Assembly: GCF_001514205.1 (NCBI RefSeq)
Contig: NZ_KQ948772.1
Coordinates: 88,697-152,696, forward strand
DNA from: Streptomyces griseoruber
Lineage (GTDB): Bacteria; Actinomycetota; Actinomycetes; Streptomycetales; Streptomycetaceae
DNA: 64,000 nucleotides
Direction: 5' to 3'
Within the stretch, counting starts at the first letter, position 1. Every line of letters starts with the position of its first letter. This document shows positions 7,669 to 54,245 of this stretch, one piece after another. Position numbers and translations under genes: made by a program. Below the pieces are notes generated by a model. It was not told where the DNA came from, made no database searches, and saw only the letters and a program-made list of their open reading frames with translations.

Positions 7669-9241
<1,573 letters not shown>

Positions 9242-9245
<4 letters not shown>

Positions 9246-10684: not shown

Positions 10685-10707
10685 GCCTCTCATCCGTCTC
10701 GTCCGTC

Positions 10708-11886: not shown

Positions 11887-11910
11887 GAGAGATCCTCCTT
11901 CGCCAATCAC

Positions 11911-11925
11911 GAGAATCCTATTCTC
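11911..11925. promoter_or_regulatory. Shared palindromic operator, site 2
   Basis: GAGAATCCTATTCTC is a perfect GAGAAT-N3-ATTCTC palindrome, extended by a C/G pair on each side. It lies 25 bp upstream of the amidohydrolase start and overlaps the last codons of the preceding ligase gene. The mutase operon can therefore be controlled separately from the ligase. Confidence 0.82.
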
Positions 11926-13486: not shown

Positions 13487-13536
13487 GACGGGAACGCCTC
13501 CTCTGCTGCAGGGGGATCACCCCGCATCACCCTCAC

Positions 13537-13551
13537 GAGAATTGCACTCTC
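13537..13551. promoter_or_regulatory. Shared palindromic operator, site 3
   Basis: GAGAATTGCACTCTC matches the shared palindrome with one mismatch in the right half (ACTCTC) and keeps flanking C/G. It lies between the divergent ligase (start 13486) and reductase (start 13578), so it can serve both promoters. Confidence 0.72.
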
Positions 13552-13577
13552 GCATAGAGAGAAGGTAACTTCCATAC

Positions 13578-14570: not shown

Positions 14571-14571
14571 C

Positions 14572-17594: not shown

Positions 17595-17604
17595 CCGTCT
17601 CTCC

Positions 17605-35183: not shown

Positions 35184-35951
35184 TCAGGCGGGCCTGGTCT
35201 CCCAGGCCGCCTCGGCGGCGTCGGCCAGTGCCTCGCCCTTCGCGAAACCGTAGTACGCGGCGAACTGCAGCACGATCTCGTCCATCTCCTCCTTGGTCAG
35301 GTCGCCGGAGTGCAGCGCCGCGGTGACATGGGTGCGCAGCGGCAGGGGCGAGTCGTCCAGCGCGACGCTGGCCACCGTCACGATCCGCCGCTCCCGGCGG
35401 GTCAGTCCGGCCCGCTGCCAGACGTGGCCGAACACGAAGTTGAGGATCCCGGCCTGCCGGTACGGCGAGTTGACCGGCGGCGCGGGGGTCAGGTTGACGT
35501 CGACGAACTCCTCGACGCCGCGCTTGAGCCGTTCGTCCCAGACGGCCGGGCCGAGGGTGTCGTCGGTCAGGAGCGGCCAGGGTGGGGTCTCCTCACCTCG
35601 CTCGCGGTGAACACGGTCCCACTGCCGGGCGATGGCCCCCTCCAGGTGGGAGGCCTTGGGCCAGCCGCAGTACACCGCGAAGTGCAGGACGAACTCCAGC
35701 AGGGCCTCCAGCCCGATGTCCCCGCCGGCGAGCGCCGCGTAGACGTGGTCCTCGATGGGACCGGGCGCGTCGGCGGCGGCCACACAGGTCAGGGTGACCC
35801 AGCGCCGGTCCCTGCGGCTCAGTCCGGGACGTGACCACACCTCGCCGAACAGGAACTCGCGTGAGGCTCGGGCGAACGGGGTGTTCACGGCGGACTGTCC
35901 AGCGGTGGCCATGACCTCGGCCCGGGTCCGGGTCGCGTCGGTGCCGTCCAT
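35184..35951 (-). CDS. Two-domain carboxymuconolactone decarboxylase family protein
   Basis: The 255-aa protein contains two CMD domains. The first spans residues ~25-115 (GLSRRDRRWVTLTCVAAADA...LHFAVYCGWPKA) and the second ~160-250 (GLTRRERRIVTVASVALDDS...LQFAAYYGFAKG). One chain may form the usual CMD oligomer with fewer subunits. ATG 35951 has AGGAGG. It is the last gene of an SDR-SDR-ALDH-CMD operon. Confidence 0.87.
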   Translation of the reverse strand: MDGTDATRTRAEVMATAGQSAVNTPFARASREFLFGEVWSRPGLSRRDRRWVTLTCVAAADAPGPIEDHVYAALAGGDIGLEALLEFVLHFAVYCGWPKASHLEGAIARQWDRVHRERGEETPPWPLLTDDTLGPAVWDERLKRGVEEFVDVNLTPAPPVNSPYRQAGILNFVFGHVWQRAGLTRRERRIVTVASVALDDSPLPLRTHVTAALHSGDLTKEEMDEIVLQFAAYYGFAKGEALADAAEAAWETRPA

Positions 35952-35983
35952 GGGTGCCTCCTGAGGTCGGCGTCGGGAAAGCC

Positions 35984-37468
35984 TCAAGCGCTGATGAAGA
36001 CGTTCTTGGTCTGGAGGAACTCGTACAGGCCCTCCTTGCCGCCCTCCCGGCCGTACCCGCTGTGCTTGTAGCCTCCGAACGGGGCGCCCGGCGGCTGGCC
36101 CGAGGCTCCGTTGACGAGCACGGTGCCCGACTGGAGCAGCGGCACGACGCGCTGGATCCGCGACGCGTCGCGCGTGTACAGGACGGTGCCCAGCCCGTAG
36201 GGGGTGGCGTTGGCCAGTTCGACCGCCTCGTCCTCGCCGTCGAAGGGGATCACCGACAGCACGGGACCGAACACCTCGTGCTGTGCCACCTCGCTGTGCG
36301 GGTCGACGTCGGCGAGGACCGTCGGGTCGATGAAGAAGCCGTCGCGGACGGCCGGCGCGAGCCGGGACGGGTCGGTGGCGTGGCCACCGGCGACCACCCG
36401 GCTGTCCTTCGCCGCCCGCTCGATCATCCCGAGGATCCGTTCGCGGGCGGCCTCGGCGACGACCGGGCCGAGTGCCGTCCCCTGGTCGAACGGGTCTCCG
36501 GCCCGCAGCGCGCCGGCGGCCCCGACGGCCGCGGCGACCGCCTCGTCGTACACGGACCGGTGCACGAGCATGCGGGTGGTGAGGTTGCAGCCCTGGCCCG
36601 ACAGGTTGAAGCAGGAACGGACGGTCTCGGCGACGGCCGCCGCGAGATCGGCGTCGGGGAAGACGACGTTGGCGGTCTTCCCGCCGAGTTCGAGCAGGAC
36701 GGGCTTGAGGGTGTGGCGTGCGGCGTCGAGGATCTTCTTCGCGGTCGGAATCCCGCCGGTGAAGGAGATCTTGGCGACGTCGGGGTGCCGGACCAGCCGG
36801 TCCCCCGCTTCCGGCCCGCCCGGCAGCACGTGCAGCACCCCGGGAGGCAGCCCGGCCTCCAGCGCGATCTCGGCGAACCGGGCGACGGTGAACGGGGCCA
36901 GGTCGGGGGACTTGACCACGACGCAGTTGCCCGCCGCGAGGGCGGGAGCGACCTTCATCCCGAGCGACATGACCGGGCCGTTCCAGGTGAGGACGACCCC
37001 GACGACGCCGTACGGCTCCGGCACGGTGTAGTCGAGCCCCGCCGCGATGCGGGGGCTCGGCGGGACCGTCGCCCCCTCGATCTTGTCGGCCCAGCCCGCG
37101 TAGTAGCCGAACCACGCGGAGGACAGATGGGCCAGGCCGGCCGACGTACGGAACGGGACGCCGAGTTCGAGGGTGGTGAGCCGGGCCAGTTCGAGAACGC
37201 GTTCCCGCAGCAGGTCCTCGATCCGCTGGAGTATGCGGCGGCGTTCGTCCGGGGACATCGCCCGCCAGGCGGGGAAGGCGGCCTTCGCCGCGGCGACGGC
37301 CGCGTCGATCTCCTGCGGCCCGGCAAGCAGGACGGCGCCGTTCGGGCGGGCGGTGGCGGGGTTGACGTGGTCGGCACGGCCGGCGGACGGGCGGTCGAGC
37401 CAGACACCGTCGACGAGGGGGCCGGTGGTACCGAGGTCGTGGGACGCGGTGGTCGAGGAGGAGGTCAT
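35984..37468 (-). CDS. Aldehyde dehydrogenase
   Basis: The 494-aa ALDH has Asn163 in LTWNGPVMS, Glu260 in LLELGGKTAN and Cys294 in SGQGCNLTTRM, and ends PFGGYKHSGYGREGG. It is clearly different from the 30776 ALDH. ATG 37468 (MTSSS) is preferred over the longer ORF start. It lies 32 bp before the CMD gene and 70 bp after an SDR gene. It likely oxidises the aldehyde made by one of the two upstream SDRs. Confidence 0.9.
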   Translation of the reverse strand: MTSSSTTASHDLGTTGPLVDGVWLDRPSAGRADHVNPATARPNGAVLLAGPQEIDAAVAAAKAAFPAWRAMSPDERRRILQRIEDLLRERVLELARLTTLELGVPFRTSAGLAHLSSAWFGYYAGWADKIEGATVPPSPRIAAGLDYTVPEPYGVVGVVLTWNGPVMSLGMKVAPALAAGNCVVVKSPDLAPFTVARFAEIALEAGLPPGVLHVLPGGPEAGDRLVRHPDVAKISFTGGIPTAKKILDAARHTLKPVLLELGGKTANVVFPDADLAAAVAETVRSCFNLSGQGCNLTTRMLVHRSVYDEAVAAAVGAAGALRAGDPFDQGTALGPVVAEAARERILGMIERAAKDSRVVAGGHATDPSRLAPAVRDGFFIDPTVLADVDPHSEVAQHEVFGPVLSVIPFDGEDEAVELANATPYGLGTVLYTRDASRIQRVVPLLQSGTVLVNGASGQPPGAPFGGYKHSGYGREGGKEGLYEFLQTKNVFISA

Positions 37469-37538
37469 GTCGGTTCCGCCTTGGGATCGTCCGGGTGGGG
37501 CGGTGGGGCATGCGCGCGGCACGCGGCGGCCGGCTCGG

Positions 37539-38318
37539 TCACAACCGGGTGACCCAGCCGCCGTCGACGCTGATCACCTGGCCGTTGATCCATTCACCGG
37601 CCGGCGAGGCGAGCAGGAGCAACGTGCCCAGCAGGTCTTCGGCGGGAGCGGACTTCTTGCCCGGGATGGCGGCGGTCAGGGCGGCCCGAGCGGGGTGGTC
37701 GGCGGGCAGGCTGCGCAGCCCGGGTTCGTTCTCGACCAGGCCGGGGGCGATGGCGTTGACGTTGATGCCGAGCGGGCCGAGCGAGCGGGCGAGGCCAACG
37801 GTGATGTTGACCAGGGCGAGTTTGCTGACGCCGTAGATGCCGCCGCCCATGAAGGCGCCCGCGGACACCTGGTTGATGATCCGTCCACCGCCGCGTTCGG
37901 TCATCGACGCCTTGACGGCCCCCGCACAGAGGACGGCGCCGAGCACGTTCACCCGCATGACCCGGTCGAACCAGTCCGTGGGCAGGTCCAGGATGTCGAC
38001 CTGGGGGATCTCCGCCATGAGTGCCGCGTTGTTCACCAGGATGTCGATGCCGCCGAACGCGGCGGTGCTCTTCGCGGCCATGTCGGCGGTGGAGGCCCTG
38101 TCGGTGATGTCGGTCTGCACGCCGAGGGCCTGCAGACCGTCGGAGGCCAGCGTCGCGGCGGCGCTCTCGGCCCGTGCGCCGTCGAGGTCCGCGAGGACGA
38201 CGGCGGCTCCGGCCTCGGCCAGCGCCCGGCCGTAGACCTGCCCGATGGCACCGGCCCCACCGGTCACGACGGCGACCTTGCCGTCGAGACGCAGCCGGTC
38301 GAGTGTGCTGCTGCTCAT
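37539..38318 (-). CDS. SDR family oxidoreductase
   Basis: The 259-aa SDR has TGGAGAIGQVYGRALAEAGA, NNAALMAEIPQ and RIINQVSAGAFMGGGIYGVSKLAL; Ser and Tyr-Lys are present, with an unusual Gly/Ala-rich loop between them. It ends SVDGGWVTRL. Its ATG overlaps the stop of the following SDR gene on the minus strand (38315-38318). Confidence 0.88.
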   Translation of the reverse strand: MSSSTLDRLRLDGKVAVVTGGAGAIGQVYGRALAEAGAAVVLADLDGARAESAAATLASDGLQALGVQTDITDRASTADMAAKSTAAFGGIDILVNNAALMAEIPQVDILDLPTDWFDRVMRVNVLGAVLCAGAVKASMTERGGGRIINQVSAGAFMGGGIYGVSKLALVNITVGLARSLGPLGINVNAIAPGLVENEPGLRSLPADHPARAALTAAIPGKKSAPAEDLLGTLLLLASPAGEWINGQVISVDGGWVTRL

Positions 38319-39100
38319 GGGGTGTCCTTCGTCAGACGGGACAGGTAGGCGTCGATGTCGGCGCCGTGTTCGCGCAGTTCGTCGGCGGCTTGTGGTGCGG
38401 TGAGGATGAGGAACCGGTCGCGCAGGACACCGTCGGCGACGAGTTCACCGACGGACTCGGCGTCCAGGACGGGAAAGGCGGGTCCGCGGGGTGGTGCCGG
38501 TTTTCCGTAGAAGGCGATCTGCTCGACGATGTTCGTGGCCACGCCCGCCGGACACAGGCAGGAGACGCCGATGCCGCGCGGACGCAGATAGAGGGCGAGC
38601 GCCTCGGACAGGCCGACGATCGCGTGTTTGGTCGCGGTGTACGGCAGCCGGTCGAAGCCGTACGGCAGCAGACCGGCCGTGGAGGCGGTGTTGACGACAT
38701 GCCCCGACCCCTGCTCCAGCAACCCGGGCAGAAAGACGAGGTTGCTGCGCACCACGCCCAGCAGATTGACGTCCACGACGCGTTGCCAGGCCTCGAGGGG
38801 GATGTCCTCGGCGGGGCCGACTGCCAGGACACCGGCGTTGTTCATGACCAGGTCGACGCGGCCGAAGTGGTCGAGAGCCAGGCCGCGGACCGCTCGCAGG
38901 TCGTCGACGCTGGTGACGTCGCACGCCGCGGCGACCCCCCTGGGACCCAGTTCGTCTGCCACGGTCCGCGCCCGCTCGCCGATCAGATCGGTCACCACCA
39001 CCCGTGCGCCGCGCCGGGCGAAGGCGTGTGCGGCGGCACGGCCGATCCCGCTGCCCGCGCCGGTCACCACGGCCACGGCGTGGTGCAGGTCGATGCTCAT
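38315..39100 (-). CDS. SDR family oxidoreductase
   Basis: The 261-aa SDR has TGAGSGIGRAAAHAFARRGA, NNAGVLAVGPAEDI, VVNTASTAGLLPYGFDRLPYTATKHA and a long C-terminal extension ending in SRLTKDTP. The extended C-terminus, lacking the common VDGG end, resembles SDRs that use large hydrophobic alcohols. It is the first gene of a four-gene minus operon. A variant operator lies about 320 bp upstream. Confidence 0.87.
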   Translation of the reverse strand: MSIDLHHAVAVVTGAGSGIGRAAAHAFARRGARVVVTDLIGERARTVADELGPRGVAAACDVTSVDDLRAVRGLALDHFGRVDLVMNNAGVLAVGPAEDIPLEAWQRVVDVNLLGVVRSNLVFLPGLLEQGSGHVVNTASTAGLLPYGFDRLPYTATKHAIVGLSEALALYLRPRGIGVSCLCPAGVATNIVEQIAFYGKPAPPRGPAFPVLDAESVGELVADGVLRDRFLILTAPQAADELREHGADIDAYLSRLTKDTP

Positions 39101-39540: not shown

Positions 39541-39556
39541 TCAGACGCCGTACCGG
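39506..39556. repeat. 17-bp tandem repeat, three copies, at the 3' end of mftG
   Basis: The unit CTCGGACGCCGTACCGC occurs three times in a row, the last copy with changes (CTCAGACGCCGTACCGG). The mftG stop codon (39541-39543 on the minus strand) falls in the third copy. The two extra copies lie downstream of the gene and repeat its final codons (RYGV). Replication slippage is the simplest origin. Confidence 0.85.
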
Positions 39557-41070
39557 AGAGACCGGGCGGCGAGTTCCCCGATGAGGACGGCCGTCGCGGC
39601 GGGCCCGCGCAGCGGCGCGTCCGGCAGGATCGAGGTGTCGGCCACCCGCAGGCCGGCGACGCCGTGCACCCGCCCGTGGGCGTCGACGGCGGCGGACGGG
39701 CCCATCGGAACGGTGCCGCAGGTGTGCTGGGCCGTGCCGAGCCGTGCCCGGATCCAGCCGTCCAGGGCACGGTCGTCGCCGAGGACGGAGGCGGCCGGGT
39801 CCTCCACGCCCGCGCCGATCTCCGCGAACGCGCCCGCCGCGGTCAGCGCCGCCGCGGCCCTGACCGCCTCCCGCAGCCCGGCCCGGTCGGCGGCGGTCGC
39901 CAGATAGCCGTGGTCGACGCGCGGCGGGACGTCCGGATCGGCCGACACGGTCCGCAGTCCGCCGCGTCTGCGGGGCGTCTGCACGGACGCCAGGAACAGC
40001 TGCGGCGCCCGCCCGGCGGCCGTGGTCCCCTCGGCCAGGGCGGTCATCGGCACCAGCGACTGGAGGATCTCCAGATCCCCCGCGCCCGGCTCGGCGAAGG
40101 AGGACGTCAGATGCAGCGCGCCGCCCAGCCAGGTGCCCTCGGGATCGGCCACGGGGCGCCGGGGGCGCCACGTCAGGGCCACCTGGGGGTGATCGCTGAG
40201 CGCGGCGCCCACCGCGGGCAGGTCGGCCGCGACGGGAAGGCCCAGCCGGGTGAGCCGCGTCGCGGGTCCGACGCCGGAGAGGTGCAGCAGATGGGGTGTG
40301 GCGAGGGATCCGGCGCACAGGACGGTCTCACCGGCCGGGACGACGACGCGCCGCCCGGCGCTCTCGGCGACCACGCCGGTGGCCCGCCCCCGGTGGATGA
40401 CCACCGAGCGGACCGTGCAGTCACCGCGCACCGCGAGGTTCGGCCGGTCGAGAGCGCCGAGCAGATACGCCAGGCCCGCGTTGACGCGCAGCCCGCCGAG
40501 GGTGTTGGTCGGCACCGGACCGACGCCGGGTGGGTCCTGCGCGTTCTTGTCGGGCTCCGCGGGGTGGCCGAGCTCCCGGGCGGCCGCGGCGAAGGCGGTC
40601 GCCGCGGGATGCGTCAGAGGTGTCCGGTGCACCGGGACAGGGCCGGTGCGGCCGTGACCGGGGTCGTCCGGAAGGTCCAGGTCGGTCTCCAGCGCGCGCA
40701 GCAGCGGCAGCACCCGCTCGTACGACCAGCGCGGGTCGCCGCAGCACCGGGCCCACCGCGCGAAGTCCGCCCGCCGCGCCCGGACGAAGTAGCCGCCGTT
40801 GACGGTGGTGGAGCCGCCGAGCACCCGGCCCCTGGGGGCGGCGTAGCACCGGTCGGGGGTGAGCCGTACCGGGATCGGGCGCACGTAGGGGTGGGCCGGC
40901 ATCGCGCCCGGTACCAGCCGGGCGTCCAGCACAGGGGCCGGGAATCCGTCGCGGGGCACCGGCCCGGCCTCCAGCAGCAGTACGCGGCAGCCGGGCTCCT
41001 CGCTCAGACGCGCGGCCAGCACGGCACCGGCGCCGCCCGCCCCCACCACCACCACGTCCGGGTTGCGCAC
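39541..41070 (-). CDS. mftG: Mycofactocin-associated GMC oxidoreductase MftG
   Basis: The 509-aa FAD enzyme has VVVVGAGGAGAVLAARLSEEPG at the N-terminus, GRVLGGSTTVNGGYF as GMC signature, AGSLATPHLLHLSGVGP and the C-terminal QHTCGTVPMGP with the catalytic His. MftG in mycobacteria oxidises mycofactocinol and passes electrons to the respiratory chain. Here it is divergent from mftA, with 82 bp and operator site 7 between them, instead of following mftF. Assignment rests on similarity and location; another GMC enzyme is at 15996. Confidence 0.85.
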   Translation of the reverse strand: MRNPDVVVVGAGGAGAVLAARLSEEPGCRVLLLEAGPVPRDGFPAPVLDARLVPGAMPAHPYVRPIPVRLTPDRCYAAPRGRVLGGSTTVNGGYFVRARRADFARWARCCGDPRWSYERVLPLLRALETDLDLPDDPGHGRTGPVPVHRTPLTHPAATAFAAAARELGHPAEPDKNAQDPPGVGPVPTNTLGGLRVNAGLAYLLGALDRPNLAVRGDCTVRSVVIHRGRATGVVAESAGRRVVVPAGETVLCAGSLATPHLLHLSGVGPATRLTRLGLPVAADLPAVGAALSDHPQVALTWRPRRPVADPEGTWLGGALHLTSSFAEPGAGDLEILQSLVPMTALAEGTTAAGRAPQLFLASVQTPRRRGGLRTVSADPDVPPRVDHGYLATAADRAGLREAVRAAAALTAAGAFAEIGAGVEDPAASVLGDDRALDGWIRARLGTAQHTCGTVPMGPSAAVDAHGRVHGVAGLRVADTSILPDAPLRGPAATAVLIGELAARSLRYGV

Positions 41071-41093: not shown

Positions 41094-41130
41094 GGAAATA
41101 CCATTCTCAAGTTCAGAGAATTACCATATC
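41094..41130. promoter_or_regulatory. mftG-mftA divergent promoter with shared operator, site 7
   Basis: GGAAATACCATTCTC (41094-41108) is the shared palindrome with a variant left half. A further GAGAAT half-site lies at 41116-41121, which forms an everted repeat ATTCTC-N7-GAGAAT. The coxL/DapB-like promoter has the same layout (ATTCTC-N6-GAGAAC). TACCAT at 41122-41127 is a possible -10 for mftA. mftA has a GAGGAG RBS about 7 bases before ATG 41153. Confidence 0.65.
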
Positions 41131-41152: not shown

Positions 41153-41302
41153 ATGCGGGACACGAACGCGGCGGACGAGCCGCGGGCCGCGCATCCGGAC
41201 AGCCCGCAGGACCGCGCCGCGGACTCGGCGGACGGTGTGACGGAACTCGCCGACCCGCTGATCGAGGACGTGTCCATCGACGGCATGTGCGGCGTCTACT
41301 GA
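41153..41302 (+). CDS. mftA: Mycofactocin precursor peptide MftA
   Basis: This small ORF encodes 49 residues ending in IDGMCGVY, the conserved C-terminus of mycofactocin precursors. Val48 and Tyr49 are the residues that MftC decarboxylates and cross-links, and MftE later releases the Val-Tyr core. The leader is acidic and Asp/Ala-rich (MRDTNAADEPRAAHPDSPQD). The start has GAGGAG upstream. The stop TGA overlaps the mftB ATG. It is encoded directly downstream of operator site 7. Confidence 0.97.
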   Translation: MRDTNAADEPRAAHPDSPQDRAADSADGVTELADPLIEDVSIDGMCGVY

Positions 41303-41616
41303 TGGCCGGCTTCGACCTCGACCGGGCCTGGGCGCCGCACCGCCAGGTCTCCGTGCGTCCGGAGGCGTTCGGCGCCCTGCTCTACCATTTCGGCACGCGC
41401 CGGCTGACCTTCCTCAAGGACCCGAGGCTCGCCGAGGTCGTCCTCCGGCTGCCCGACGCGCCCTCAGCCCGCTCCGCCTGCGCGGCCGGCGGCGTTCCGT
41501 CAGGCGAACTCGACCGCTTCGCGTCGGCGTTGGCCGCCCTGGCGGGCAGCGGCATGCTCGTCGAACGGACGCCCGGCGGACCGACGCCCGGCGCGTCGGA
41601 GCGCGCGCGTGCGTGA
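41302..41616 (+). CDS. mftB: Mycofactocin chaperone MftB
   Basis: The 104-aa protein is a PqqD-like RiPP recognition element that binds the MftA leader and delivers it to MftC. The segment HRQVSVRPEAFGALLYHFGTRRLTFLKDPRLAEVV is the typical winged-helix core. The C-terminal third is less conserved. ATG 41302 overlaps the mftA stop. The next gene, xdhC-like, starts at 41609 inside mftB, so the insert is fully coupled to the operon. Confidence 0.93.
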   Translation: MAGFDLDRAWAPHRQVSVRPEAFGALLYHFGTRRLTFLKDPRLAEVVLRLPDAPSARSACAAGGVPSGELDRFASALAALAGSGMLVERTPGGPTPGASERARA

Positions 41617-42751
41617 GATCGCCGCGCAGCTCGTGGCCTGGGAGCGGACCGGAGTGCGGTATGCCCTCGCCACGGTGATCGCGACGACCGGCAGCGCACC
41701 GCGCCGGCCCGGAGCGGCCATGGCCGTCGCCGGGAACGGGGACGTACGGGGCAGCGTGTCCGGAGGATGCGTGGAGAGCGCGGTGTACGAGCTCTGCGGC
41801 GAGGTCCTCGACAGCGGCTCGGCGGTCCGCGCACACTTCGGCTATTCCGACGGCACCGCCGTCGAGGCCGGACTGACCTGCGGCGGGACGATCGAGGTGT
41901 TCGTGCAGCCGCAACCCCCCGCCGCGGTGGTGCGGGCGGTCACCGGCACCCGCCCGCTGGCTGTCGCCCACCTCCTGACCGGCCCGGGCTCCGTCATGGC
42001 CGTCGGCCCCGGCGTCCGCCACGGCACTCTGGGCACCGGGGAGACCGACGCCGCGGTGGCCGCCCTGGCGCGGGCCATGCTGGACGCCGGGGCCACCGGG
42101 ATCCGTTCGGTTCGGTGCCGTCCGGACACGGAGGTCTTCATCTCCTCGTACGCCGCACGGCCGCGCATGCTCGTCTTCGGCGCGAACGACCACGCGGGTG
42201 CCGTCGTGACCATCGGCCGGTTCCTCGGCTACCGCGTGACCGTCTGCGACGCCCGCCCGGTGTTCGCCACTCCGGGGCGGTTCCCCGACGCCGACGATGT
42301 CGTGCTCGACTGGCCGCACCGCTACCTCGCGTCCACCGGGACCGACCCGCGCACGGTGGTCGTGGTGCTCACCCACGACCCCAGGTTCGACGTGCCGTTG
42401 CTGGAGAGGGCCCTGCGCCTGCCGCTGGGCTACGTGGGCGCCATGGGCTCGCGGCGGACCCACGACGAGCGGCTGGCCCGGCTGCGCGCCGCCGGGCTCA
42501 CCGACCGCGAGCTGGCGCTGCTGCGCTCTCCCATCGGACTCGACCTCGGTGCGGTCACCCCGCAGGAGACCGCGGTGGCCATCGCCGCCGAGGTGATCGC
42601 CGTCCGGCACGGCGGCAGCGCCCTGCCCCTGCGCCGCACCCATGGGCCCCTGCACCACGGCCTCCCCGGCGGCGGCGCCGTTCCCGTACGAGCCGTCCCC
42701 GTCGGCACCCCGCCCGACATCGCCGAGCCGAAGGATCCGGTACCCCCATGA
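41609..42751 (+). CDS. XdhC/CoxI family molybdenum-enzyme maturation protein, inserted in mft operon
   Basis: The 380-aa protein has an N-terminal XdhC/CoxI domain (TTGSAPRRPGAAMAV, SVSGGCVESAVYEL, LTCGGTIEVFV with two conserved Cys) and a C-terminal Rossmann XdhC domain (VFGANDHAGAVV, GYVGAMGSRRTHDERL, IGLDLGAVTPQETAVAIAAE). XdhC proteins bind or sulfurate the molybdenum cofactor of xanthine-dehydrogenase-type enzymes. It lies between mftB and mftC with overlaps on both sides. Its probable client is the molybdenum hydroxylase at 50403-54095, under the same operator type. Confidence 0.92.
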   Translation: MREIAAQLVAWERTGVRYALATVIATTGSAPRRPGAAMAVAGNGDVRGSVSGGCVESAVYELCGEVLDSGSAVRAHFGYSDGTAVEAGLTCGGTIEVFVQPQPPAAVVRAVTGTRPLAVAHLLTGPGSVMAVGPGVRHGTLGTGETDAAVAALARAMLDAGATGIRSVRCRPDTEVFISSYAARPRMLVFGANDHAGAVVTIGRFLGYRVTVCDARPVFATPGRFPDADDVVLDWPHRYLASTGTDPRTVVVVLTHDPRFDVPLLERALRLPLGYVGAMGSRRTHDERLARLRAAGLTDRELALLRSPIGLDLGAVTPQETAVAIAAEVIAVRHGGSALPLRRTHGPLHHGLPGGGAVPVRAVPVGTPPDIAEPKDPVPP

Positions 42752-43950
42752 CCGCCCCCGCGAAGCCGCGTCGCCTGACCGAGCTGTTCGAGACCGGACT
42801 CGCCGCGCCGGTCTGCCTGACCTGGGAACTGACCTATGCCTGCAACCTGGCCTGCGCCCACTGTCTGTCCAGCTCCGGGCGGCGTGATCCGCGCGAGCTG
42901 ACCACGGCCGAGGCCATGGCCGTCATCGACGAACTGGAGGCCATGCAGGTCTTCTACGTCAACATCGGCGGCGGCGAGCCGACGGTGCGCCCGGACTTCT
43001 GGGACCTGCTCGACCACGCCACCGGACACCACGTGGGGGTGAAGTTCTCCACCAACGGGGTGCGCATCACCCCCGGCACCGCCCGGCGACTGGCCGGCAA
43101 CGACTACGTCGACGTACAGGTCTCGCTCGACGGAGCGACGCAGGAGGTCAACGACGCGCTGCGCGGGCCGGGTTCGTACGCGACCGCCCTGCGGGCGCTG
43201 CGCCACCTCGCCGAGGCGGGCCTGCGCGGCACCAAGCTGTCGGTGGTGTGCACCCGGCACAACATCCCGCAGCTCGACGAGTTCGAGCGGCTCGCCGACC
43301 GCTACGGGGCGCAGCTGAGGCTGACCCGGCTGCGGCCGTCGGGCCGCGGCGCCGACGTCTGGGACGACCTGCGCCCCACCCCCGGGCAGCAGCGGGAGCT
43401 GTACGAGTGGCTGCTGGCCCACGGCGACACCGTGCTGACCGGTGACTCCTTCTTCCACCTGTCCGCGTACGGGCGTTCCCTGCCCGGGCTGAACCTGTGC
43501 GGAGCCGGACGGGTGGTGTGCCTGATCGATCCGGTCGGTGACGTGTACGCGTGCCCGTTCGCGATCCACGAGGACTTCCTCGCGGGCAACGTCCGCGAGC
43601 CGGGCGGTTTCGCCGAGGTCTGGCGGTCCGCGCCCCTCTTCCACCGCCTGCGCGCGCCGCAGTCGGGGGGTGCGTGTGCCTCGTGCTCCTTCCACGACAC
43701 GTGCAAGGGCGGCTGCATGGCCGCCAAGTTCTTCACCGGCCTGCCCCTGGACGGCCCGGACCCCGAGTGCGTGCGCGGCCTCGGAGAGGAACTGCTGGCG
43801 CGGCGGCCGGCCGACCGCACCCACCTGCCGCGGCCGGGGGCCGACCACTCCCGGCCGGTGCTGGTGCCGCTGACCCGCCGGCCCCCGGTGTCCGCCTGCG
43901 ACGAGAATCCGCTGGCCGGGTCCCGCCCCCCGAGGAGGTTTCCGCGATGA
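42748..43950 (+). CDS. mftC: Mycofactocin radical SAM maturase MftC
   Basis: The 400-aa radical SAM/SPASM enzyme decarboxylates and then cyclises the C-terminal Val-Tyr of MftA. The SAM-cluster motif is Cys32-x3-Cys36-x2-Cys39 (YACNLACAHC). NIGGGEPTVRPD is the SAM-binding GGE region. The SPASM Cys are in the C-terminal part (LNLCGAGRVVCLI, YACPFA, GACASCSFHDTCKGGC). It is coupled to the xdhC-like gene and to mftD by ATGA overlaps. Confidence 0.96.
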   Translation: MTAPAKPRRLTELFETGLAAPVCLTWELTYACNLACAHCLSSSGRRDPRELTTAEAMAVIDELEAMQVFYVNIGGGEPTVRPDFWDLLDHATGHHVGVKFSTNGVRITPGTARRLAGNDYVDVQVSLDGATQEVNDALRGPGSYATALRALRHLAEAGLRGTKLSVVCTRHNIPQLDEFERLADRYGAQLRLTRLRPSGRGADVWDDLRPTPGQQRELYEWLLAHGDTVLTGDSFFHLSAYGRSLPGLNLCGAGRVVCLIDPVGDVYACPFAIHEDFLAGNVREPGGFAEVWRSAPLFHRLRAPQSGGACASCSFHDTCKGGCMAAKFFTGLPLDGPDPECVRGLGEELLARRPADRTHLPRPGADHSRPVLVPLTRRPPVSACDENPLAGSRPPRRFPR

Positions 43951-45149
43951 GTCCCTTCCGCCGCAACCCCTGGTTCGAGACGGTCGCCGAGGCACAGCGC
44001 CGGGCCCGCCGGCGCCTGCCGGCCGGTGTCTACGGGGCACTGCTCGCGGGCTCCGAACGCGGCCGGACGGTCGACGACAACACCGCCGCCTTCGCCGACC
44101 TGGGCTTCGCCCCGCGGGTCGCCGGACATCACGGCCGCCGTGATCTCACCACCACCGTGCTGGGTGTGGAGACGTCGTTCCCCGTGGTCATCTCGCCCAC
44201 CGGTGTGCAGGCCGTCGATCCGCAGGCCGAGGTCGCCGTTGCCCGGGCGGCGGCGAACCGGGGCGTGATCATGGGACTGAGCTCGTTCGCGAGCAGGCCG
44301 GTGGAGGAGGTCTGCGCGGTTCATCCGAACGTGTTCTTCCAGATCTACTGGAGCGGCGGACGCGAGGTGATGCGCCGGCGGATGGAGCGGGCCCGCCGCG
44401 CCGGTGCGAAGGCGCTCGTCGCGACCCTGGACTGGTCGTTCTCCCAGGGCCGCGACTGGGGCAGCCCGGTGATCCCGGAACGGATCGACCTGCGGACGGC
44501 CCTGCGGATGGCGCCCCAGGTCCTCGCCCGGCCCGGCTGGCTGTGGCGGTTCGCCCGGGCCGGCGGCGCACCGGACCTGACCGCGCCGAACCTGGGGGCG
44601 CCGGACGGGGCGGCTCCCACGTTCTTCGGGGCGTACGGCGAGTGGATGTCCACCCCGCCGCCGACGTGGGAGGACGTCACATGGCTACGGCAGGAGTGGC
44701 AGGGGCCGTTCCTGCTGAAGGGGGTCTGCCGGGTCGACGACGCGCGCAGGGCGGTGGACGCCGGCGTGGACGCGATCTCCGTGTCCAACCACGGCGGCAA
44801 CAACCTGGACACCACCCCTGCCACCATTCGACTGCTGCCCGCGATCGCCGAGGCGGTCGGGGACGAGGTCGAGGTGCTGCTCGACGGCGGAGTGCGGCGC
44901 GGCGGCGATGTCGCCAAGGCGCTCGCCCTGGGTGCCCGGGCCGTGCTCATCGGCCGCGCCTCCCTGTGGGGCCTGGCCGCGAACGGACAGGCCGGCGTCG
45001 AGAACGTACTGGACATCCTGCGCGGCGGCCTGGACTCGGCGGTGCTCGGGCTCGGCCGGGGCTCGGTCCACGAACTGCGCCCGCGGGACCTGCACGTGCC
45101 CCGGGGGTTCGCCGTGACCCTCGGCTCCGGTCCGGCCGCGGAGCGGTGA
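43947..45149 (+). CDS. mftD: Mycofactocin FMN-dependent deaminase/oxidase MftD
   Basis: The 400-aa protein is an alpha-hydroxyacid-dehydrogenase-like FMN enzyme. It converts the AHDP intermediate into premycofactocin, whose alpha-keto amide is redox active. FMN-site segments are VVISPTGVQAVDPQAEVAVARAA, FFQIYW, VSNHGGNNLDT and VLLDGGVRRGGDVAKALALGA. It ends one base before mftE and follows mftC with an ATGA overlap. Confidence 0.94.
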   Translation: MSPFRRNPWFETVAEAQRRARRRLPAGVYGALLAGSERGRTVDDNTAAFADLGFAPRVAGHHGRRDLTTTVLGVETSFPVVISPTGVQAVDPQAEVAVARAAANRGVIMGLSSFASRPVEEVCAVHPNVFFQIYWSGGREVMRRRMERARRAGAKALVATLDWSFSQGRDWGSPVIPERIDLRTALRMAPQVLARPGWLWRFARAGGAPDLTAPNLGAPDGAAPTFFGAYGEWMSTPPPTWEDVTWLRQEWQGPFLLKGVCRVDDARRAVDAGVDAISVSNHGGNNLDTTPATIRLLPAIAEAVGDEVEVLLDGGVRRGGDVAKALALGARAVLIGRASLWGLAANGQAGVENVLDILRGGLDSAVLGLGRGSVHELRPRDLHVPRGFAVTLGSGPAAER

Positions 45150-45150
45150 G

Positions 45151-45852
45151 ATGACCGGCCCGCTGGGCGACCGGTCCTGGCCCGATGTCGCGAAGGGCGG
45201 CCTGGTCCTGGTGCCGCTCGGATCGACCGAACAGCACGGCCCGCATCTGCCCCTGTCCACCGACACCGTGATCGCCCGGGCCGTCGCGGAGCGGGCCGCC
45301 GCCCTGCTGCCCGGTGCGGCACCGGTCGCGCCGGCGATCCCGTACGGGGCGAGCGGAGAGCACGCGGGCTTCCCCGGAACCGTCTCCCTCGGCGGTGAGG
45401 CCCTGCGGGCGGTGCTCGTCGAGGCGGTGCGCTCCCTCGTCCTGTGGGCCGGGCGGGTCGCCTTCGTCAACGGGCACGGCGGCAACGGGGCGACGCTGAC
45501 GGCGGCCGTCCGCGCGCTGCGCCGGGAGGGCCACGACGTGGTCTGGACGGCGTGCCGCGTGCCCGGCGGCGATGCCCACGCCGGTGTCACGGAGACGTCG
45601 CTGATGCTCCACCTCGCCCCGGAACTGGTGCTGACGGAGCGGGCCGTCCCCGGTGACCGCCGGCCGCTCAGCGTGCTCATGCCCCGGCTGCGGACCGACG
45701 GGGTGCGCGCGGTGTCGCCCACCGGCGTGCTGGGCGATCCGACCGGGGCCAGCGCGGACCAGGGCCTGCGGACGCTGCGGGCGCTGGCGTCGGACGTGGC
45801 AGGCCGCCTCACGGCCTGGCGGGTCGACGACACGGGAAGGCTGCTGCGATGA
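45151..45852 (+). CDS. mftE: Mycofactocin peptidase MftE (creatininase family)
   Basis: The 233-aa metallopeptidase of the creatininase fold cleaves the C-terminal Val-Tyr dipeptide (AHDP) from modified MftA. Metal ligands are visible in PLGSTEQHGPHLPLSTDT and FVNGHGGNG, with a later Glu in AGVTETSLML. It is in the standard position between mftD and mftF, and its stop overlaps the mftF start. Confidence 0.94.
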   Translation: MTGPLGDRSWPDVAKGGLVLVPLGSTEQHGPHLPLSTDTVIARAVAERAAALLPGAAPVAPAIPYGASGEHAGFPGTVSLGGEALRAVLVEAVRSLVLWAGRVAFVNGHGGNGATLTAAVRALRREGHDVVWTACRVPGGDAHAGVTETSLMLHLAPELVLTERAVPGDRRPLSVLMPRLRTDGVRAVSPTGVLGDPTGASADQGLRTLRALASDVAGRLTAWRVDDTGRLLR

Positions 45853-47300
45853 ACCCGGACCCGTCACCGTCGCTCTCGCCGCCGGGACTGCCCGTCGCCC
45901 TGGACCACGCCGTCTCCTTCCGGGCCGGCGGGCGGGTGGTCACCGGCGGCGCCCCGTGGGGGGTCGCCCTGCTCAAGGAGGCCGCGCTGCCCCACCTCAC
46001 CGCCCTTCGCCGCGCGGGACGCACCGGTCTGACCCCCGGGACGGCGGTGGCGCGCGCGCTGGCGCGGCGACTGCTCGACCGGGGACTCGCCCATCCCGTG
46101 CCCCCGTCCCGGCCGGGGCCCCATCCGGTGACCGTCGTGGTCCCGGCCTTCGGCCGGCCGGCGGAACTGCACCGCTGTCTGGCCTCGCTGCGGGGACTGC
46201 CGGTCGTCGTCGTGGACGACGGCTCACCCGACCCCGGGCCGGTCCGCGCCGCCGCCTCGGCCCACGGCGCGCGGGTGCTGCGCCACGAGGTCAACCGCGG
46301 CCCGGCCGCGGCCCGCAACACCGGCCTGGCCGTGGTCCGTACCCCGCTGGTGGCGTTCGTCGACTCCGACTGCCGGCCCGAGGAGGGCTGGCTGGATCTC
46401 CTCGTCCCGTGCTTCGACGACCCGAAGGTGGCCGCCGTCGCCCCGCGTGTCGTGCCGGCCGTCCGCTCCCGCGGTCGCGGGGCGCTCGCCCGGTACGAGG
46501 CCGCCCGCTCCGCCCTCGACCTGGGGCGGGAGCCGGCGTTGGTACGTCCGGGCGCGCGGGTGGGCTTCGTGCCGACCGCTGCCCTCGTCGTGCGCACGGA
46601 TGCCCTGCGCGACGCCGCGTTCGACGAGGAACTGCGCCTGGGCGAGGACGTCGACCTCGTCTGGCGGCTGCACGACCGCGGGCGGCACGTGCGCTACGAG
46701 CCGCGGGCCCGCGTCGCCCACACACCGCGGCTCGGCCCGTGGGAGTGGGCCCGCCGCCGCCACGAGTACGGCACCTCCGCCGCCGCGCTGGCCGAGCGCC
46801 ACCCCGGCCGGCTGGCGCCGGCCCGCCCCTCCGCCTGGAACCTCCTCACGCTGGCCTGCGTCGTCGGCGGGCGTCCTCGGGCGGCCGCCGCGAGCGCGCT
46901 GCTGACCGCGGGGCTGCTGCGGCGCCGTCTGTCGGGGACGCCGGCCGCGACGGGGCTGAGCGCGTCCGTCGTGGCGCAGGGCCTGATCGCCGACACGGCC
47001 GCGCTGGGACTGGCCCTGCGTCGCGAGTGGTGGCCGCTGGGACTGCTGTGCCTGGCCCGCGCGCCCCGCGACAGGACCGCCCGCGCGGCGACGGCGGCCA
47101 TGCTCGCTCCGGTCGTCGCCGAATGGGTGACGCACGGCCACGGCCTGGACCTCCCGCGGTGGACCGCGCTCAGATGCCTCGACGACCTGTGCTACGGCAC
47201 CGGCGTGACCGCGTCGGCCTGGCGGCACCGTTCGCCCGCCCCGCTGCTGCCGAAGGTCTCCTTGCCGTTCCTGCGCGGCGACGGCCGCCGACGGCCCTGA
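45849..47300 (+). CDS. mftF: Mycofactocin glycosyltransferase MftF
   Basis: The 483-aa protein has an MftF-type N-terminal extension (~95 aa) followed by a GT2 domain (VTVVVPAFGRPAELHRCLASL, VVVDDGSPDPG, AFVDSDCRPEEGW with the DxD-like motif, LGEDVDLVWRL) and a hydrophobic C-terminal region that could associate with the membrane. MftF adds an oligo-beta-1,4-glucose chain to premycofactocin. It is the last gene of the mft operon and converges with the ferredoxin of the molybdenum hydroxylase operon. Confidence 0.93.
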   Translation: MNPDPSPSLSPPGLPVALDHAVSFRAGGRVVTGGAPWGVALLKEAALPHLTALRRAGRTGLTPGTAVARALARRLLDRGLAHPVPPSRPGPHPVTVVVPAFGRPAELHRCLASLRGLPVVVVDDGSPDPGPVRAAASAHGARVLRHEVNRGPAAARNTGLAVVRTPLVAFVDSDCRPEEGWLDLLVPCFDDPKVAAVAPRVVPAVRSRGRGALARYEAARSALDLGREPALVRPGARVGFVPTAALVVRTDALRDAAFDEELRLGEDVDLVWRLHDRGRHVRYEPRARVAHTPRLGPWEWARRRHEYGTSAAALAERHPGRLAPARPSAWNLLTLACVVGGRPRAAAASALLTAGLLRRRLSGTPAATGLSASVVAQGLIADTAALGLALRREWWPLGLLCLARAPRDRTARAATAAMLAPVVAEWVTHGHGLDLPRWTALRCLDDLCYGTGVTASAWRHRSPAPLLPKVSLPFLRGDGRRRP

Positions 47301-47406: not shown

Positions 47407-47640
47407 TCAGGTCTCCGGCGGGAAGACCCGGTGTCCGGTGTCCGCGTCGGTGATCGAGATCGCCTCGATCGGGCAGGACTCGGCCACCTCCAGCACCACG
47501 TCGGACTCCGCTGTCCTCTCGGCCCGCGCGCGCCCCTGCCCGCTCTCGTCGAGTTCGAAGTCGGCGGGCGCGGACGCCACGCACAGACCGGTGCGGACAC
47601 AGAGCCGCTTGTCGACCCTGACGGTCCACCGCTCCGTCAT
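47407..47640 (-). CDS. Ferredoxin (3Fe-4S type)
   Basis: The 77-aa ferredoxin has DKRLCVRTGLCVASAPADFELD and SCPIEAISITD, the same single-cluster type as the 27953 ferredoxin. It overlaps the P450 stop by ATGA (47637-47640), so it is probably that P450's donor. It is the last gene of the molybdenum hydroxylase operon. Confidence 0.9.
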   Translation of the reverse strand: MTERWTVRVDKRLCVRTGLCVASAPADFELDESGQGRARAERTAESDVVLEVAESCPIEAISITDADTGHRVFPPET

Positions 47641-48859: not shown

Positions 48860-49696
48860 TCACTTGAGCAGGGCACCGGCGTCGATGGGCAGGGTCACCC
48901 CGGTGACGAAGCGGGCCTCGTCGGAGGCGAGGAAGAGAACGGCGTTGCTGATGTCGACGGGCTCGACCCAGGGGGTGGGCAGCACGTGCATGCCCATGGA
49001 GACGGCGGCGAAGTCGTCGACGGTGGGGGCCTCCAGGTCGGGACGGAACATCCGGTAGGTGCCCTCGTGCATCACCATCGGGGTGTTCACCTGGCTGGGG
49101 TGCACCGTGTTGACCCGGATGCGGTGCGCCCCCAGCTCCCCGCCCAGCGTGCGCATCAGCCCCACCACACCGTGCTTGGCGGCGATGTAGTGTCCGATGT
49201 TCGCGTAGCCCTTGAGTCCTCCCACCGAGCTGGTGAGGATGATCGATCCGCCCCTGCCGCCCGCGACGATGTGGGGGATCGACACCTTGGCGGTGAGCCA
49301 CACGCCGGTCAGGTTGACGTCGATCATGTCGCGCCAGGTCTTCTCGTCCATCACGTCGAGGGTGGCGCCGTCGCTGCCGAGGCCGGCGTTGGCGACCACG
49401 ACGTCCAGACGGCCGAAGGCGGCCACGCCTTCGTCCACGGCCGCCTTGAGCGCGTCGTGATCGCGGACGTCGGCCTGTACGGCGTGGATCCGCCGGCCCA
49501 GCTTCCGCACCTGTTCGGCCGTCTCCTCCAGGTCCTCGGGCGTGGACATCGCAAACGTCACGCCGTCGAGCTGCCTGCACACGTCGACGGCGATGATGTC
49601 GGCGCCCTCCTCCGCCAGCCGCACGGCGTGGCTGCGTCCCTGGCCGCGTGCCGCGCCGGTGATGAACGCGACCTTTCCTTCGACTCGTCCGGGCAT
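48860..49696 (-). CDS. Mycofactocin-coupled SDR family oxidoreductase
   Basis: The 278-aa SDR has TGAARGQGRSHAVRLAEEGADIIAVDVC and an insert between strand 2 and helix C (VTFAMSTPEDLEET). These are hallmarks of the SDR subfamily that co-occurs with mycofactocin and holds a non-exchangeable NAD. Catalytic Ser (TSSVGGLKGYANIGHYIAAKHG) and Tyr-Lys are present. It lies in one operon with the molybdenum hydroxylase and P450. It would oxidise an alcohol and pass electrons to mycofactocin. Confidence 0.92.
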   Translation of the reverse strand: MPGRVEGKVAFITGAARGQGRSHAVRLAEEGADIIAVDVCRQLDGVTFAMSTPEDLEETAEQVRKLGRRIHAVQADVRDHDALKAAVDEGVAAFGRLDVVVANAGLGSDGATLDVMDEKTWRDMIDVNLTGVWLTAKVSIPHIVAGGRGGSIILTSSVGGLKGYANIGHYIAAKHGVVGLMRTLGGELGAHRIRVNTVHPSQVNTPMVMHEGTYRMFRPDLEAPTVDDFAAVSMGMHVLPTPWVEPVDISNAVLFLASDEARFVTGVTLPIDAGALLK

Positions 49697-49698: not shown

Positions 49699-50406
49699 CT
49701 ACCTCGATTCCTGGGGTCGGGTGGGGTGATGACGGCGGGAGGTCCCGGTCACCTGACAGTGGCGTCTCCGGCTGCGCAGCCCGAGCACGAGGGCGAGCAG
49801 CACGGTGAGGACCGCGGCCGGCCCGAGGCGCTTGAGCACGCCGGCTCCGGCCGCGTCGACGAGGTCGAGCGGTTCGGCCGCGCGGCGGGCCCCGGCGACG
49901 ACGGCCGCGGGCGGTGGATCCGGGGGCACCGGGACGGTGGGGGCGACGGCGTGCGGCGGGTCCGCCGCCAGTTCCCGCGCGAGGTTCTCCGCGAACCGGG
50001 CGATGAGGGTGTTCGCCACCTCGGCCAGCGTGCCGCGTCCGAACTGGGCGGGCTTGCCCGTGATGACGAGGTCGGTCTCCACGAACACCTCGGCGGACCG
50101 CTCACCGGCCTCGGCCAGCCGGCAGGTCACCAGGGCCCTCGCGGTTCCGTTGCCCCGGTTCTCCCGGCCGCCGGCCTCCAGAACCACGGTCCGCTCGGCC
50201 TCGTTCCGCGACAGGAACGTGACGGTGCCGCTGTAGGTCAGGCCGACCGGGCCGAGCCTGACCCTGATCCTGCCGTGGCAGGTGTCGCCGTCCCGGGAGA
50301 CGAGGGTGGCGCCGGGCACACAGGGGGTGACCCGCTCGATGTCGAGCAGGACCCGCCAGGCCTCCTCCACCGGCACCGGAACGGTGAGCCTGTTCTCCAG
50401 TCTCAT
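49699..50406 (-). CDS. CoxG-like SRPBCC protein with C-terminal membrane anchor
   Basis: The 235-aa protein has a CoxG/START-like domain (MRLENRLTVPVPVEEAWRVLLD, VTPCVPGATLV, GLTYSGTVTFL, FVETDLVITGKPAQFGRG) and a single hydrophobic helix near residue 200 (AVLTVLLALVLGL). CoxG anchors carbon monoxide dehydrogenase to the membrane, and here it would recruit the molybdenum hydroxylase to the respiratory chain. It overlaps the small subunit gene by ATGA and ends 2 bp before the SDR start. Confidence 0.88.
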   Translation of the reverse strand: MRLENRLTVPVPVEEAWRVLLDIERVTPCVPGATLVSRDGDTCHGRIRVRLGPVGLTYSGTVTFLSRNEAERTVVLEAGGRENRGNGTARALVTCRLAEAGERSAEVFVETDLVITGKPAQFGRGTLAEVANTLIARFAENLARELAADPPHAVAPTVPVPPDPPPAAVVAGARRAAEPLDLVDAAGAGVLKRLGPAAVLTVLLALVLGLRSRRRHCQVTGTSRRHHPTRPQESR

Positions 50407-50882
50407 ACCGCGTCCCCCCGCTCGGCCGCGGCCCGGACGGCGTCGACGATGCCCTGGTAGCCGGTGCAGCGGCACAGGTTCCCGGACAGGGCCTCGCGGA
50501 TCTCCTCGTCGGTGGGCCTGGGGTGCTCGGCGAGGAACGCGGTGACGGACACCACGAGTCCCGGGGTGCAGAATCCGCACTGCAACGCGTGGTGGTCGCG
50601 GAACGCGGTCTGTACGGCGCTCAGTCCGCCGCCGGGCGGGGTGAGCCCCTCGACCGTGGTGACCTCCGCCCCGTCGGCCTGGACGGCGAACACCAGACAG
50701 GCCCGGACGGCCTCGCCGTCCAGCAGAACCGTGCAGGCGCCGCACACTCCGTGCTCGCACCCGAGGTGGGTGCCGGTCAGACCGCAGTCGGTCCGCAGGA
50801 AGTCGGCGAGGGTGAGCCGGGGCGGCACGGTCGCCCGGCGCGGGACGCCGTTGACGCGTAACCGGATGTCGACGTCAGTCAT
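50403..50882 (-). CDS. Molybdenum hydroxylase small subunit (two 2Fe-2S clusters, CoxS-like)
   Basis: The 159-aa subunit has a plant-type 2Fe-2S site (GCEHGVCGACTVLLDG) and an all-helical second site (CGFCTPG followed by NLCRCTGYQGI). It carries electrons from the molybdenum site to FAD. ATG 50882 (MTDVDIRL) overlaps the medium-subunit stop by 8 bp. It lacks an export signal, so the enzyme is cytoplasmic. Confidence 0.95.
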   Translation of the reverse strand: MTDVDIRLRVNGVPRRATVPPRLTLADFLRTDCGLTGTHLGCEHGVCGACTVLLDGEAVRACLVFAVQADGAEVTTVEGLTPPGGGLSAVQTAFRDHHALQCGFCTPGLVVSVTAFLAEHPRPTDEEIREALSGNLCRCTGYQGIVDAVRAAAERGDAV

Positions 50883-51750
50883 GGACCGCCTCCCGAACGG
50901 CGTGCCGCCAGGCACGGGCCACCATGGCCGCGCCCACGCGCTTGCGATAGCCGGCCGATCCGTGCAGATCGGCCGGGACCGAGTCGAGTCCCGACACGGC
51001 GAGGTCCGCGATGTCGCCGGCCGCCTCCGTCGTGGGCTCGCGGCCGATGAGCTCCCTCTCCGCGGCCCGCGCCCGGCAGGGCACCGGGCCGAGTCCGAAC
51101 ACGGCGATGGCGCACCGGTCGATCCGCCGGTCGGGCCCGAGCCCCACGGCGACGGTGGCTCCGGCGAGCGCGAAGTCGCCGCTCCTGCGGGCGAACTCCG
51201 CCACGGCGAATCCCCGGGGCCGGTGCCAGACGGGAAGGGCGACGGCGGTGAGCAGTTCGTCCTCGGCGAGGTCGGTGCTCCAGGTGCCGGTGAAGAACCG
51301 GTCGGCGGGAACGGTGCGGCGTCCGCGCGGTGACAGTGTCTCCAGCCGGGCGTCCAGGGTCAGCGCCACCGCCGGGTACTCGGCGGCGGCGTCGGCGTGG
51401 GCGAGTGAGCCGCCGACCGTGCCGCGGCTGCGGATCTGGAAGTGGCCGATGAGAGGTGTGGCGCGGGCCAGCAGGGGGGCGGCGTCGCGCACCACGTCGG
51501 AGCGCTCCACGGCCGCCTGGGTCGTGGTCGCGCCGATCCGCACCACGCCGCCGCGGTGCTCGATGCCCGGCAGCCCCTTCACCCGACGCAGGTCGACGAG
51601 GTGTCCGAAGGCGGCCAGGCGGAGCGCCAGCATGGGCACGAGGGACTGGCCGCCGGCGAGGACCTTGGCCTCGTCGCCCAGGCGGGCGAGCAGGGCCACC
51701 GTCTCCTCGGGGTCCACGGGGGCGTGGTACTCGAACGCCGCCGGTTTCAT
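50875..51750 (-). CDS. Molybdenum hydroxylase FAD-binding medium subunit (CoxM-like)
   Basis: The 291-aa flavoprotein has the FAD motif VLAGGQSLVPMLALRL and GTVGGSLAHADAAAEYP, both standard for CoxM/xanthine dehydrogenase FAD subunits, and a CO dehydrogenase flavoprotein C-terminal domain. It overlaps the genes on both sides (8 bp and 4 bp). Its electron acceptor is probably membrane quinone by way of CoxG. Confidence 0.94.
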   Translation of the reverse strand: MKPAAFEYHAPVDPEETVALLARLGDEAKVLAGGQSLVPMLALRLAAFGHLVDLRRVKGLPGIEHRGGVVRIGATTTQAAVERSDVVRDAAPLLARATPLIGHFQIRSRGTVGGSLAHADAAAEYPAVALTLDARLETLSPRGRRTVPADRFFTGTWSTDLAEDELLTAVALPVWHRPRGFAVAEFARRSGDFALAGATVAVGLGPDRRIDRCAIAVFGLGPVPCRARAAERELIGREPTTEAAGDIADLAVSGLDSVPADLHGSAGYRKRVGAAMVARAWRHAVREAVHD

Positions 51751-54198: not shown

Positions 54199-54213
54199 GA
54201 GAACTACATTCTC
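54199..54213. promoter_or_regulatory. Shared palindromic operator, site 8
   Basis: GAGAACTACATTCTC is the shared palindrome, between the divergent molybdenum hydroxylase operon and the DapB-like gene. A second half-site GAGAAC follows at 54220-54225. TATACT at 54228-54233 is a good -10 for the plus-strand gene, so the operator would cover its -35 region. Confidence 0.8.
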
Positions 54214-54245
54214 AGATGAGAGAACTATATACTTGGAGGCGGGAA

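Follow-up and report, generated by a model that had tools for sequence, protein, structure and literature searches.

In Streptomyces griseoruber, an intact gene of the xdhC/coxI family lies between mftB and mftC inside a complete mycofactocin (mft) operon, and this operon converges on a coxL-M-S-G gene set for a molybdenum hydroxylase. The stretch analysed, called the window here, comprises 64,000 nucleotides (contig NZ_KQ948772.1 of assembly GCF_001514205.1, positions 88,697 to 152,696). The preferred reading, to which a probability of roughly 0.7 is assigned, is that the encoded XdhC is a working chaperone of the molybdenum cofactor (Moco) for the neighbouring hydroxylase, and that its gene would be placed in the mft operon because one pathway needs both cofactor services. 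Gene content, frame overlaps, intactness, protein family, repeated co-location with one hydroxylase clade and a history shared by xdhC and mftF are directly established.

All six biosynthetic genes are encoded on the plus strand in the usual order and score above their NCBIfam equivalog cut-offs: the precursor peptide gene mftA (41153-41302; TIGR03969, with PF23709 also above cut-off), the chaperone gene mftB (41302-41616; TIGR03967, 98.5 bits against a cut-off of 33), the radical SAM maturase gene mftC (42748-43950; TIGR03962, 631 against 265), mftD (43947-45149; TIGR03966, 669 against 471), mftE (45151-45852; TIGR03964, 317 against 172) and the glycosyltransferase gene mftF (45849-47300; TIGR03965, 420 against 280). 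A GMC oxidoreductase of the MftG type, above its cut-off as well, is encoded divergently on the minus strand (39541-41070; TIGR03970, 423 against 387). MftG is reported to connect the oxidation of mycofactocin with respiration (accessible part of PMC11778925). A second MftG above the cut-off is encoded away from the mft operon in the same genome (G000 C6:90725-92302). The locus thus resembles the known mftABCDEF(G) operons, but differs from them in that mftC does not directly follow mftB, the order being mftA-B-[xdhC]-C-D-E-F, and in that its MftF belongs to another lineage than its MftC. The inserted gene (41609-42751, plus strand, GTG start, 380 aa) is intact; read from the sequence, its overlaps with mftB and mftC are 8 and 4 bp (ATGA) long, respectively, exactly as the initial annotation had described.

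Pfam profile searches place the product in the XdhC/CoxI family, with both PF02625 (94.2 bits, gathering threshold 24.3) and PF13478 (138.7 bits, threshold 29.7) detected. The nearest structure is the solved XdhC-family chain 2we7, and the match across residues 5-354 (361 bits, E 8e-107) shows that the gene is no chance open reading frame. The motif SGGC with Cys-54 is kept, the cysteine aligns in 2we7, and of 118 distinct XdhC sequences compared, that of the window included, 112 have the motif. Cys-54 would correspond to Cys-82 of Rhodobacter capsulatus XdhC. Purifying selection appears to act on the gene: relative to the homolog from genome G526, dN is 0.21 and dS 0.90 (NG86, 355 codons). 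On the other hand, the product falls below both NCBIfam equivalogs, reaching 86.2 bits against a cut-off of 161.6 for the xanthine-dehydrogenase chaperone XdhC (TIGR02964) and 188.3 against 350 for the aldehyde-oxidoreductase (AOR) maturation factor (NF045664), which counts against the preferred reading. So does the presence of two further full-length XdhC genes in the genome (G000 C1 and C3), which could serve the hydroxylase in trans. The same genome holds a partial XdhC_CoxI match of 32 out of 68 positions (G000 C1:987198-987293), upstream of which lie what we take to be kdp-like genes, judging by position.

According to the accessible text of PMC2997495, XdhC proteins take up Moco, see to its sulfuration and pass it into enzymes of the xanthine-oxidase family, and a family cysteine is described there. 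With both Pfam domains, the conserved cysteine, closeness to 2we7 and an adjoining enzyme of the xanthine-oxidase family, the product resembles the Moco chaperones XdhC, CoxI, CoxF and PaoD. The gene position is different: R. capsulatus xdhC and Escherichia coli paoD both follow the gene of the molybdenum subunit within one operon (accessible parts of PMC2997495 and PMC3909100, respectively), whereas xdhC of the window lies in a cofactor-peptide operon that converges on the hydroxylase.

To place the insertion among other mft loci, 392 genomes of the genus were searched for mftC, and 27 carried it. No xdhC was found between mftB and mftC in the 27 other mftC loci, from 26 genomes besides that of the window, and none was called within about 9 kb on either side of the 24 loci that were widely read (6 kb only in L184). 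In all 31 other mft loci measured, five of them from another family, mftB and mftC are adjacent, and the gene in the window is a departure from this. The two genes overlap by 4 bp in 27 of these loci, and the remaining distances are -1, +31, +47 and +47 bp; such values depend on the start choices of a home-made codon-usage caller that misses small genes (often mftA, and mftB in L174). L174 and L221 gave no measurable gap and are outside the 31. Since adjacency was found at every other locus measured, the insertion is exceptional, with two translational couplings in place of one, and that of the window is the only true mftB-xdhC-mftC insertion found. A scan of 92 loci for mft genes returned only the overlapping loci of the window itself (L003, L007 and L063) and a weak mftF-like match of 36% in L072; as L064-L092 each span no more than some 4 kb, the negative result is strong only for the longer loci among L008-L062.

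A general need of mycofactocin for XdhC was considered and is rejected as far as linkage is concerned, by the missing insertion in these 27 loci. The mft genomes of the genus that lack a linked xdhC do carry XdhC genes elsewhere, so the result speaks against linkage and not against a role in trans. MftB and MftC act together on MftA, and a gene lodged between theirs might have been recruited to the biosynthesis or repair of mycofactocin, for instance as a chaperone or nucleotide-binding partner of the two; its position next to mftF in G526 and G676 would agree with this. Recruitment is nevertheless highly improbable, given the absence of the gene from that position in the 27 loci and in the five measured in another family, the retention of the family residues including the SGGC cysteine, and the hydroxylase that accompanies all four loci in which xdhC and mft genes are combined.

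The presence of a molybdenum hydroxylase nearby, which had also been claimed, was borne out. The coxL-M-S-G set (49699-54095) lies on the minus strand, convergent to mftF, and consists of the large-subunit gene coxL (51747-54095), the FAD-subunit gene coxM (50875-51750; PF00941 and PF03450 detected on the longer frame 50875-52188), the 2Fe-2S-subunit gene coxS (50403-50882; several small-subunit models of the xanthine-oxidase family, all below their cut-offs) and coxG (49699-50406 in the codon-usage gene model; PF06240 detected on the longer frame 49699-50760). The three-subunit architecture and coxG are shared with coxMSL of CO dehydrogenase and its relatives (quinoline 2-oxidoreductase, 1t3q; CoxL, 8uem). 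CoxL of the window stays under the cut-offs of all NCBIfam models that it matched; with the aerobic CO dehydrogenase large-subunit models it reaches 523 bits (TIGR02416, cut-off 991) and 556 bits (NF040766, cut-off 950). Its motif is AYRGPWQ, unlike the motif AYXCSFR of form I CO dehydrogenase.

The same minus-strand row encodes a mycofactocin-coupled SDR (48860-49696; TIGR03971, 404 bits against a cut-off of 300), a cytochrome P450 (47637-48833; all P450 models below cut-off, 82-87% identity in G526, G676 and G476) and a small protein of 77 aa (47407-47640; no NCBIfam match), which is conserved in the same three genomes and is presumably a ferredoxin, judging by its place beside the P450. In G476, the corresponding SDR-P450-77-aa block (71-94%) lies beside mft genes, and neither cox genes nor xdhC were called in the stretch read. 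This block precedes the mft operon there (L186), and the operon is directly followed by homologs (75-86%) of a region at 5280-9245 of the window that contains a B12-dependent mutase pair (7668-9245 and 7255-7668) and its neighbours (6314-7270 and 5280-6317).

The closest XdhC proteins among the matches listed come from G526 (71%) and G676 (70%), both of the same genus, and the others listed do not exceed 61%, although shorter segments reach 67% (67 residues, L062). In both genomes xdhC lies immediately upstream of mftF, behind two SDR genes, an aldehyde dehydrogenase (ALDH) gene and a carboxymuconolactone-decarboxylase-like (CMD) gene, and the row SDR-SDR-ALDH-CMD-xdhC-mftF is convergent to a row 77aa-P450-mftSDR-coxG-S-M-L; the genes of the latter row are homologous to those of the window at 55-88%. 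The window holds the CMD, ALDH and two SDR genes at 35184-39100 on the minus strand, inverted relative to G526 and G676. The product of its CMD-like gene (35184-35951, 255 aa) is longer than the PcaC model, which has 123 positions; the ortholog in G526 was called as two open reading frames, by caller artefact or frameshift. Because its nearest relatives adjoin mftF and converge on an orthologous P450, SDR and cox cluster, xdhC of the window travels with the molybdenum-hydroxylase cluster and with mftF.

The remaining mft genes of the two relatives, in the order mftA-B-C-E-SDR-D, lie about 36 kb from the mftF that adjoins xdhC, which is the sole mftF above cut-off (G526 C1 and G676 C10; L153-L158). 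MftF of the window is 78 and 76% identical to those of G526 and G676, respectively, and at most 46% to 27 others compared; a copy at the edge of locus L187 reaches 50%. In the MftF tree it groups with G526 and G676 (100/100), and the XdhC tree, of 63 rows (the window, 12 tagged sequences and the best 50 others), likewise joins the window to both (100/99). An XdhC paralog from the genome of the window (L150) falls among sequences of named Streptomyces in the latter tree. The MftC tree places the window inside a 17-row clade of other operons of the genus that does not include G526 and G676 (100/99). The operon is thus of mosaic origin: its xdhC and mftF have a common past that is bound up with the hydroxylase cluster, as the MftF and XdhC trees join the window to the two relatives and the MftC tree does not.

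This leads to the question whether the position of xdhC is an accident of assembly. On such an account xdhC and mftF would have belonged to an older hydroxylase module, around whose xdhC a foreign mftA-E was spliced, or from which mftA-E was lost in the relatives, and the position would have no regulatory meaning; the client enzyme could be the same. The conflicting affinities of MftF and MftC, and the fact that a single true insertion was found, are in line with it, and its probability is put at somewhat less than even. Against it, the frames overlap neatly at both new junctions, by 8 and 4 bp, and leave no debris; this points to selection for coupled expression.

The relation between hydroxylase, mft genes and xdhC was followed through CoxL. 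Orthologs at 82-85% identity occur in 4 of 382 genomes of the genus (that of the window, G526, G676 and G408), all four with mft genes. Leaving out the genome of the window, all three CoxL genomes carry mft, where the background is 26 of 391 genomes (P about 3e-4, a value that ignores kinship, G526 and G676 being close kin). A class-wide search of 394 genomes gave 39 matches in 38 genomes, and the neighbourhoods were read for 20 of the 37 others besides the window and G676, five of which (L221, L222, L224, L229 and L231) are truncated by a contig end. These 20 class-wide CoxL proteins and the four of the genus form a clade of 24 members (100/100), all 24 with AYRGPWQ. In nine of the 24 neighbourhoods, from two families, mft genes occur within about 10 kb: the window, G526 and G676 (mftF only in these two), L215, L216, L217, L221, L222 and L223. 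The loci L215, L216 and L217 have coxL-M-S-(G) divergent from mftA-B-C-D-E-SDR-F; in L215 mftA and the start called for coxL are about 390 bp apart. L223, from family f90, is an independent mft-Moco cluster in another family. Its positions 2232-18503 encode on one strand an SDR with 51% identity to the mycofactocin-coupled SDR of the window, a 75-aa frame in the mftA position, mftB-E, an SDR, mftF, an MftR-like fragment, coxM-S-G, a coxD-like AAA protein, a coxE-like VWA protein, xdhC and coxL; coxD/E-like genes are also found in aerobic CO dehydrogenase loci.

A survey of the loci found to combine xdhC with mft genes, namely the window, G526, G676 and L223, found the same coxL-M-S clade in four out of four. 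Together with the 27 other mft loci of the genus that have no inserted xdhC, this fits an XdhC that serves the molybdenum enzyme. An XdhC gene was seen in the stretch read for 8 of the 24 clade members (the window, G526, G676, L219, L223, L230, L232 and L233). Outside these eight, one lies 20-37 kb from the AYRGPWQ CoxL on the same contig in G377, G096 and G150, and among 12 genomes examined the XdhC genes found are on other contigs in G1082, G1066, G823, G889, G837 and G971, most with one such gene, and megabases away in G859. G408 has coxLMSG and the mycofactocin-coupled SDR without xdhC, and in that genome the mft operon lies on a separate contig; its three XdhC genes each adjoin another coxL-type set. 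The XdhC proteins linked to the clade occupy three places in the XdhC tree, requiring three changes (perhaps one gain and two losses), with L219 on a long and unsure branch, and the label is nevertheless clustered, none of 500 shuffles having needed so few. Co-inheritance of XdhC and AYRGPWQ CoxL as one pair was considered and is unsupported by these three places. An XdhC gene nearby is optional for the clade. Since it is found in only 8 of 24 cases, and since the G476 block lies by mft genes without cox genes or xdhC, the connection of xdhC, hydroxylase and mft is a feature of the lineage of the window and not a rule. The proposed tie between peptide supply and activation of the molybdenum enzyme is partly supported: the four loci agree with it, but a nearby XdhC is not obligatory.

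The recurrence of coxLMS beside mft genes, in nine of 24 cases, could also mean the direct redox partnership that had been hinted at, with the CoxM FAD or CoxS FeS subunits of AYRGPWQ hydroxylases passing electrons to mycofactocin or taking part in its reoxidation, and this would explain the clustering. In agreement with this, no MftG above the TIGR03970 cut-off was found in any of the eight examined genomes with mft-linked CoxL besides that of the window, and G408, where mft is unlinked, has one. Yet it was equally missing from four of four mft genomes in which no linked CoxL was found, chosen for having no adjacent mftG, and four of the eight (G526, G676, G1082 and G823) hold weaker matches of 244-270 bits in a search that covered TIGR03970 only, with TIGR04542 and NF038210 outside it. 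Furthermore, the genome of the window has two MftG proteins above the cut-off, and the hydroxylase has its own FeS and FAD subunits. The partnership is therefore considered very unlikely. Replacement of MftG by CoxLMS, as a separate proposal, is not discriminated by the comparison, because TIGR03970 is missing both with and without a linked CoxL found. A wider conjecture would make the AYRGPWQ hydroxylases a mycofactocin-dependent class that exchanges electrons with mycofactocin, directly or via the coupled SDR in a complex, the xdhC insertion marking a joint mycofactocin-Moco redox module; this is speculative and thought unlikely.

A shared operator had also been proposed. The palindrome ATTCTC-N7-GAGAAT lies in the gap between mftG and mftA (41103-41121, its TTCTC-N7-GAGAA core starting at 41104), and a similar one, TTCTC-N6-GAGAA, is found upstream of coxL (54209-54224). 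The window has three occurrences of the pattern TTCTC-N4..9-GAGAA, at 41104, at 54209 and, within a gene, at 4788, against a mononucleotide-random expectation of 0.015 per 64 kb that is probably too low, as G526 and G676 each hold two such palindromes elsewhere. The exact 19-bp palindrome is present once, with six matches at up to two mismatches where 0.35 are expected. In the nearest relatives, G526 and G676, the regions preceding mftA, coxL and the xdhC operon yielded no such palindrome. The claim of the same operator type thus stands for the likeness of the two sites, but not for their spacing, which is one base shorter at coxL, nor for the equivalent sites in the relatives, and common control of the mft operon and coxL is a weak candidate.

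Returning to the preferred reading of XdhC as a Moco chaperone for the neighbouring enzyme, the hydroxylase gene row also encodes the P450 and the mycofactocin-coupled SDR, which argues for a need of mycofactocin and Moco together. XdhC would bind Moco and deliver it to the neighbouring CoxL, and the P450, the SDR and CoxLMS may act in one pathway, plausibly in the order of hydroxylation by the P450, mycofactocin-linked oxidation of the alcohol, and oxidation of an aldehyde or heterocycle by the molybdenum enzyme. The SDR step would then depend on mycofactocin and that of the hydroxylase on sulfurated Moco. Both services may be supplied by a single mft transcript, on which the overlapping frames couple xdhC to its two neighbours, mftB and mftC.

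In text searches with most subscription papers outside their coverage, no paper linking mycofactocin with XdhC was found, and AYRGPWQ gave no literature match. The physiological conditions of mycofactocin are called poorly understood in PMC8728441. For mycofactocin and carbon monoxide dehydrogenase no link is described in the accessible parts of that paper, where the enzyme is mentioned in the reference list only, or of PMC7105596, which has both terms. For mycofactocin and molybdenum or molybdopterin no link is described in the texts as far as accessible, the molybdenum of PMC7176365 concerning formate dehydrogenase. Within the literature searched, the parts are each known, and the arrangement and the recurrent linkage of mft genes with AYRGPWQ hydroxylases appear to be new.

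The reactions served by mycofactocin are still largely open. The recurrent link between mft operons, mycofactocin-coupled SDRs and one clade of molybdenum hydroxylases points to a concrete pathway in which such reactions may be sought, and the embedded xdhC is a clean genetic handle on two cofactor systems. Should the link prove functional, mft clusters could also help to find the substrates of uncharacterised coxL-type enzymes from actinomycetes.
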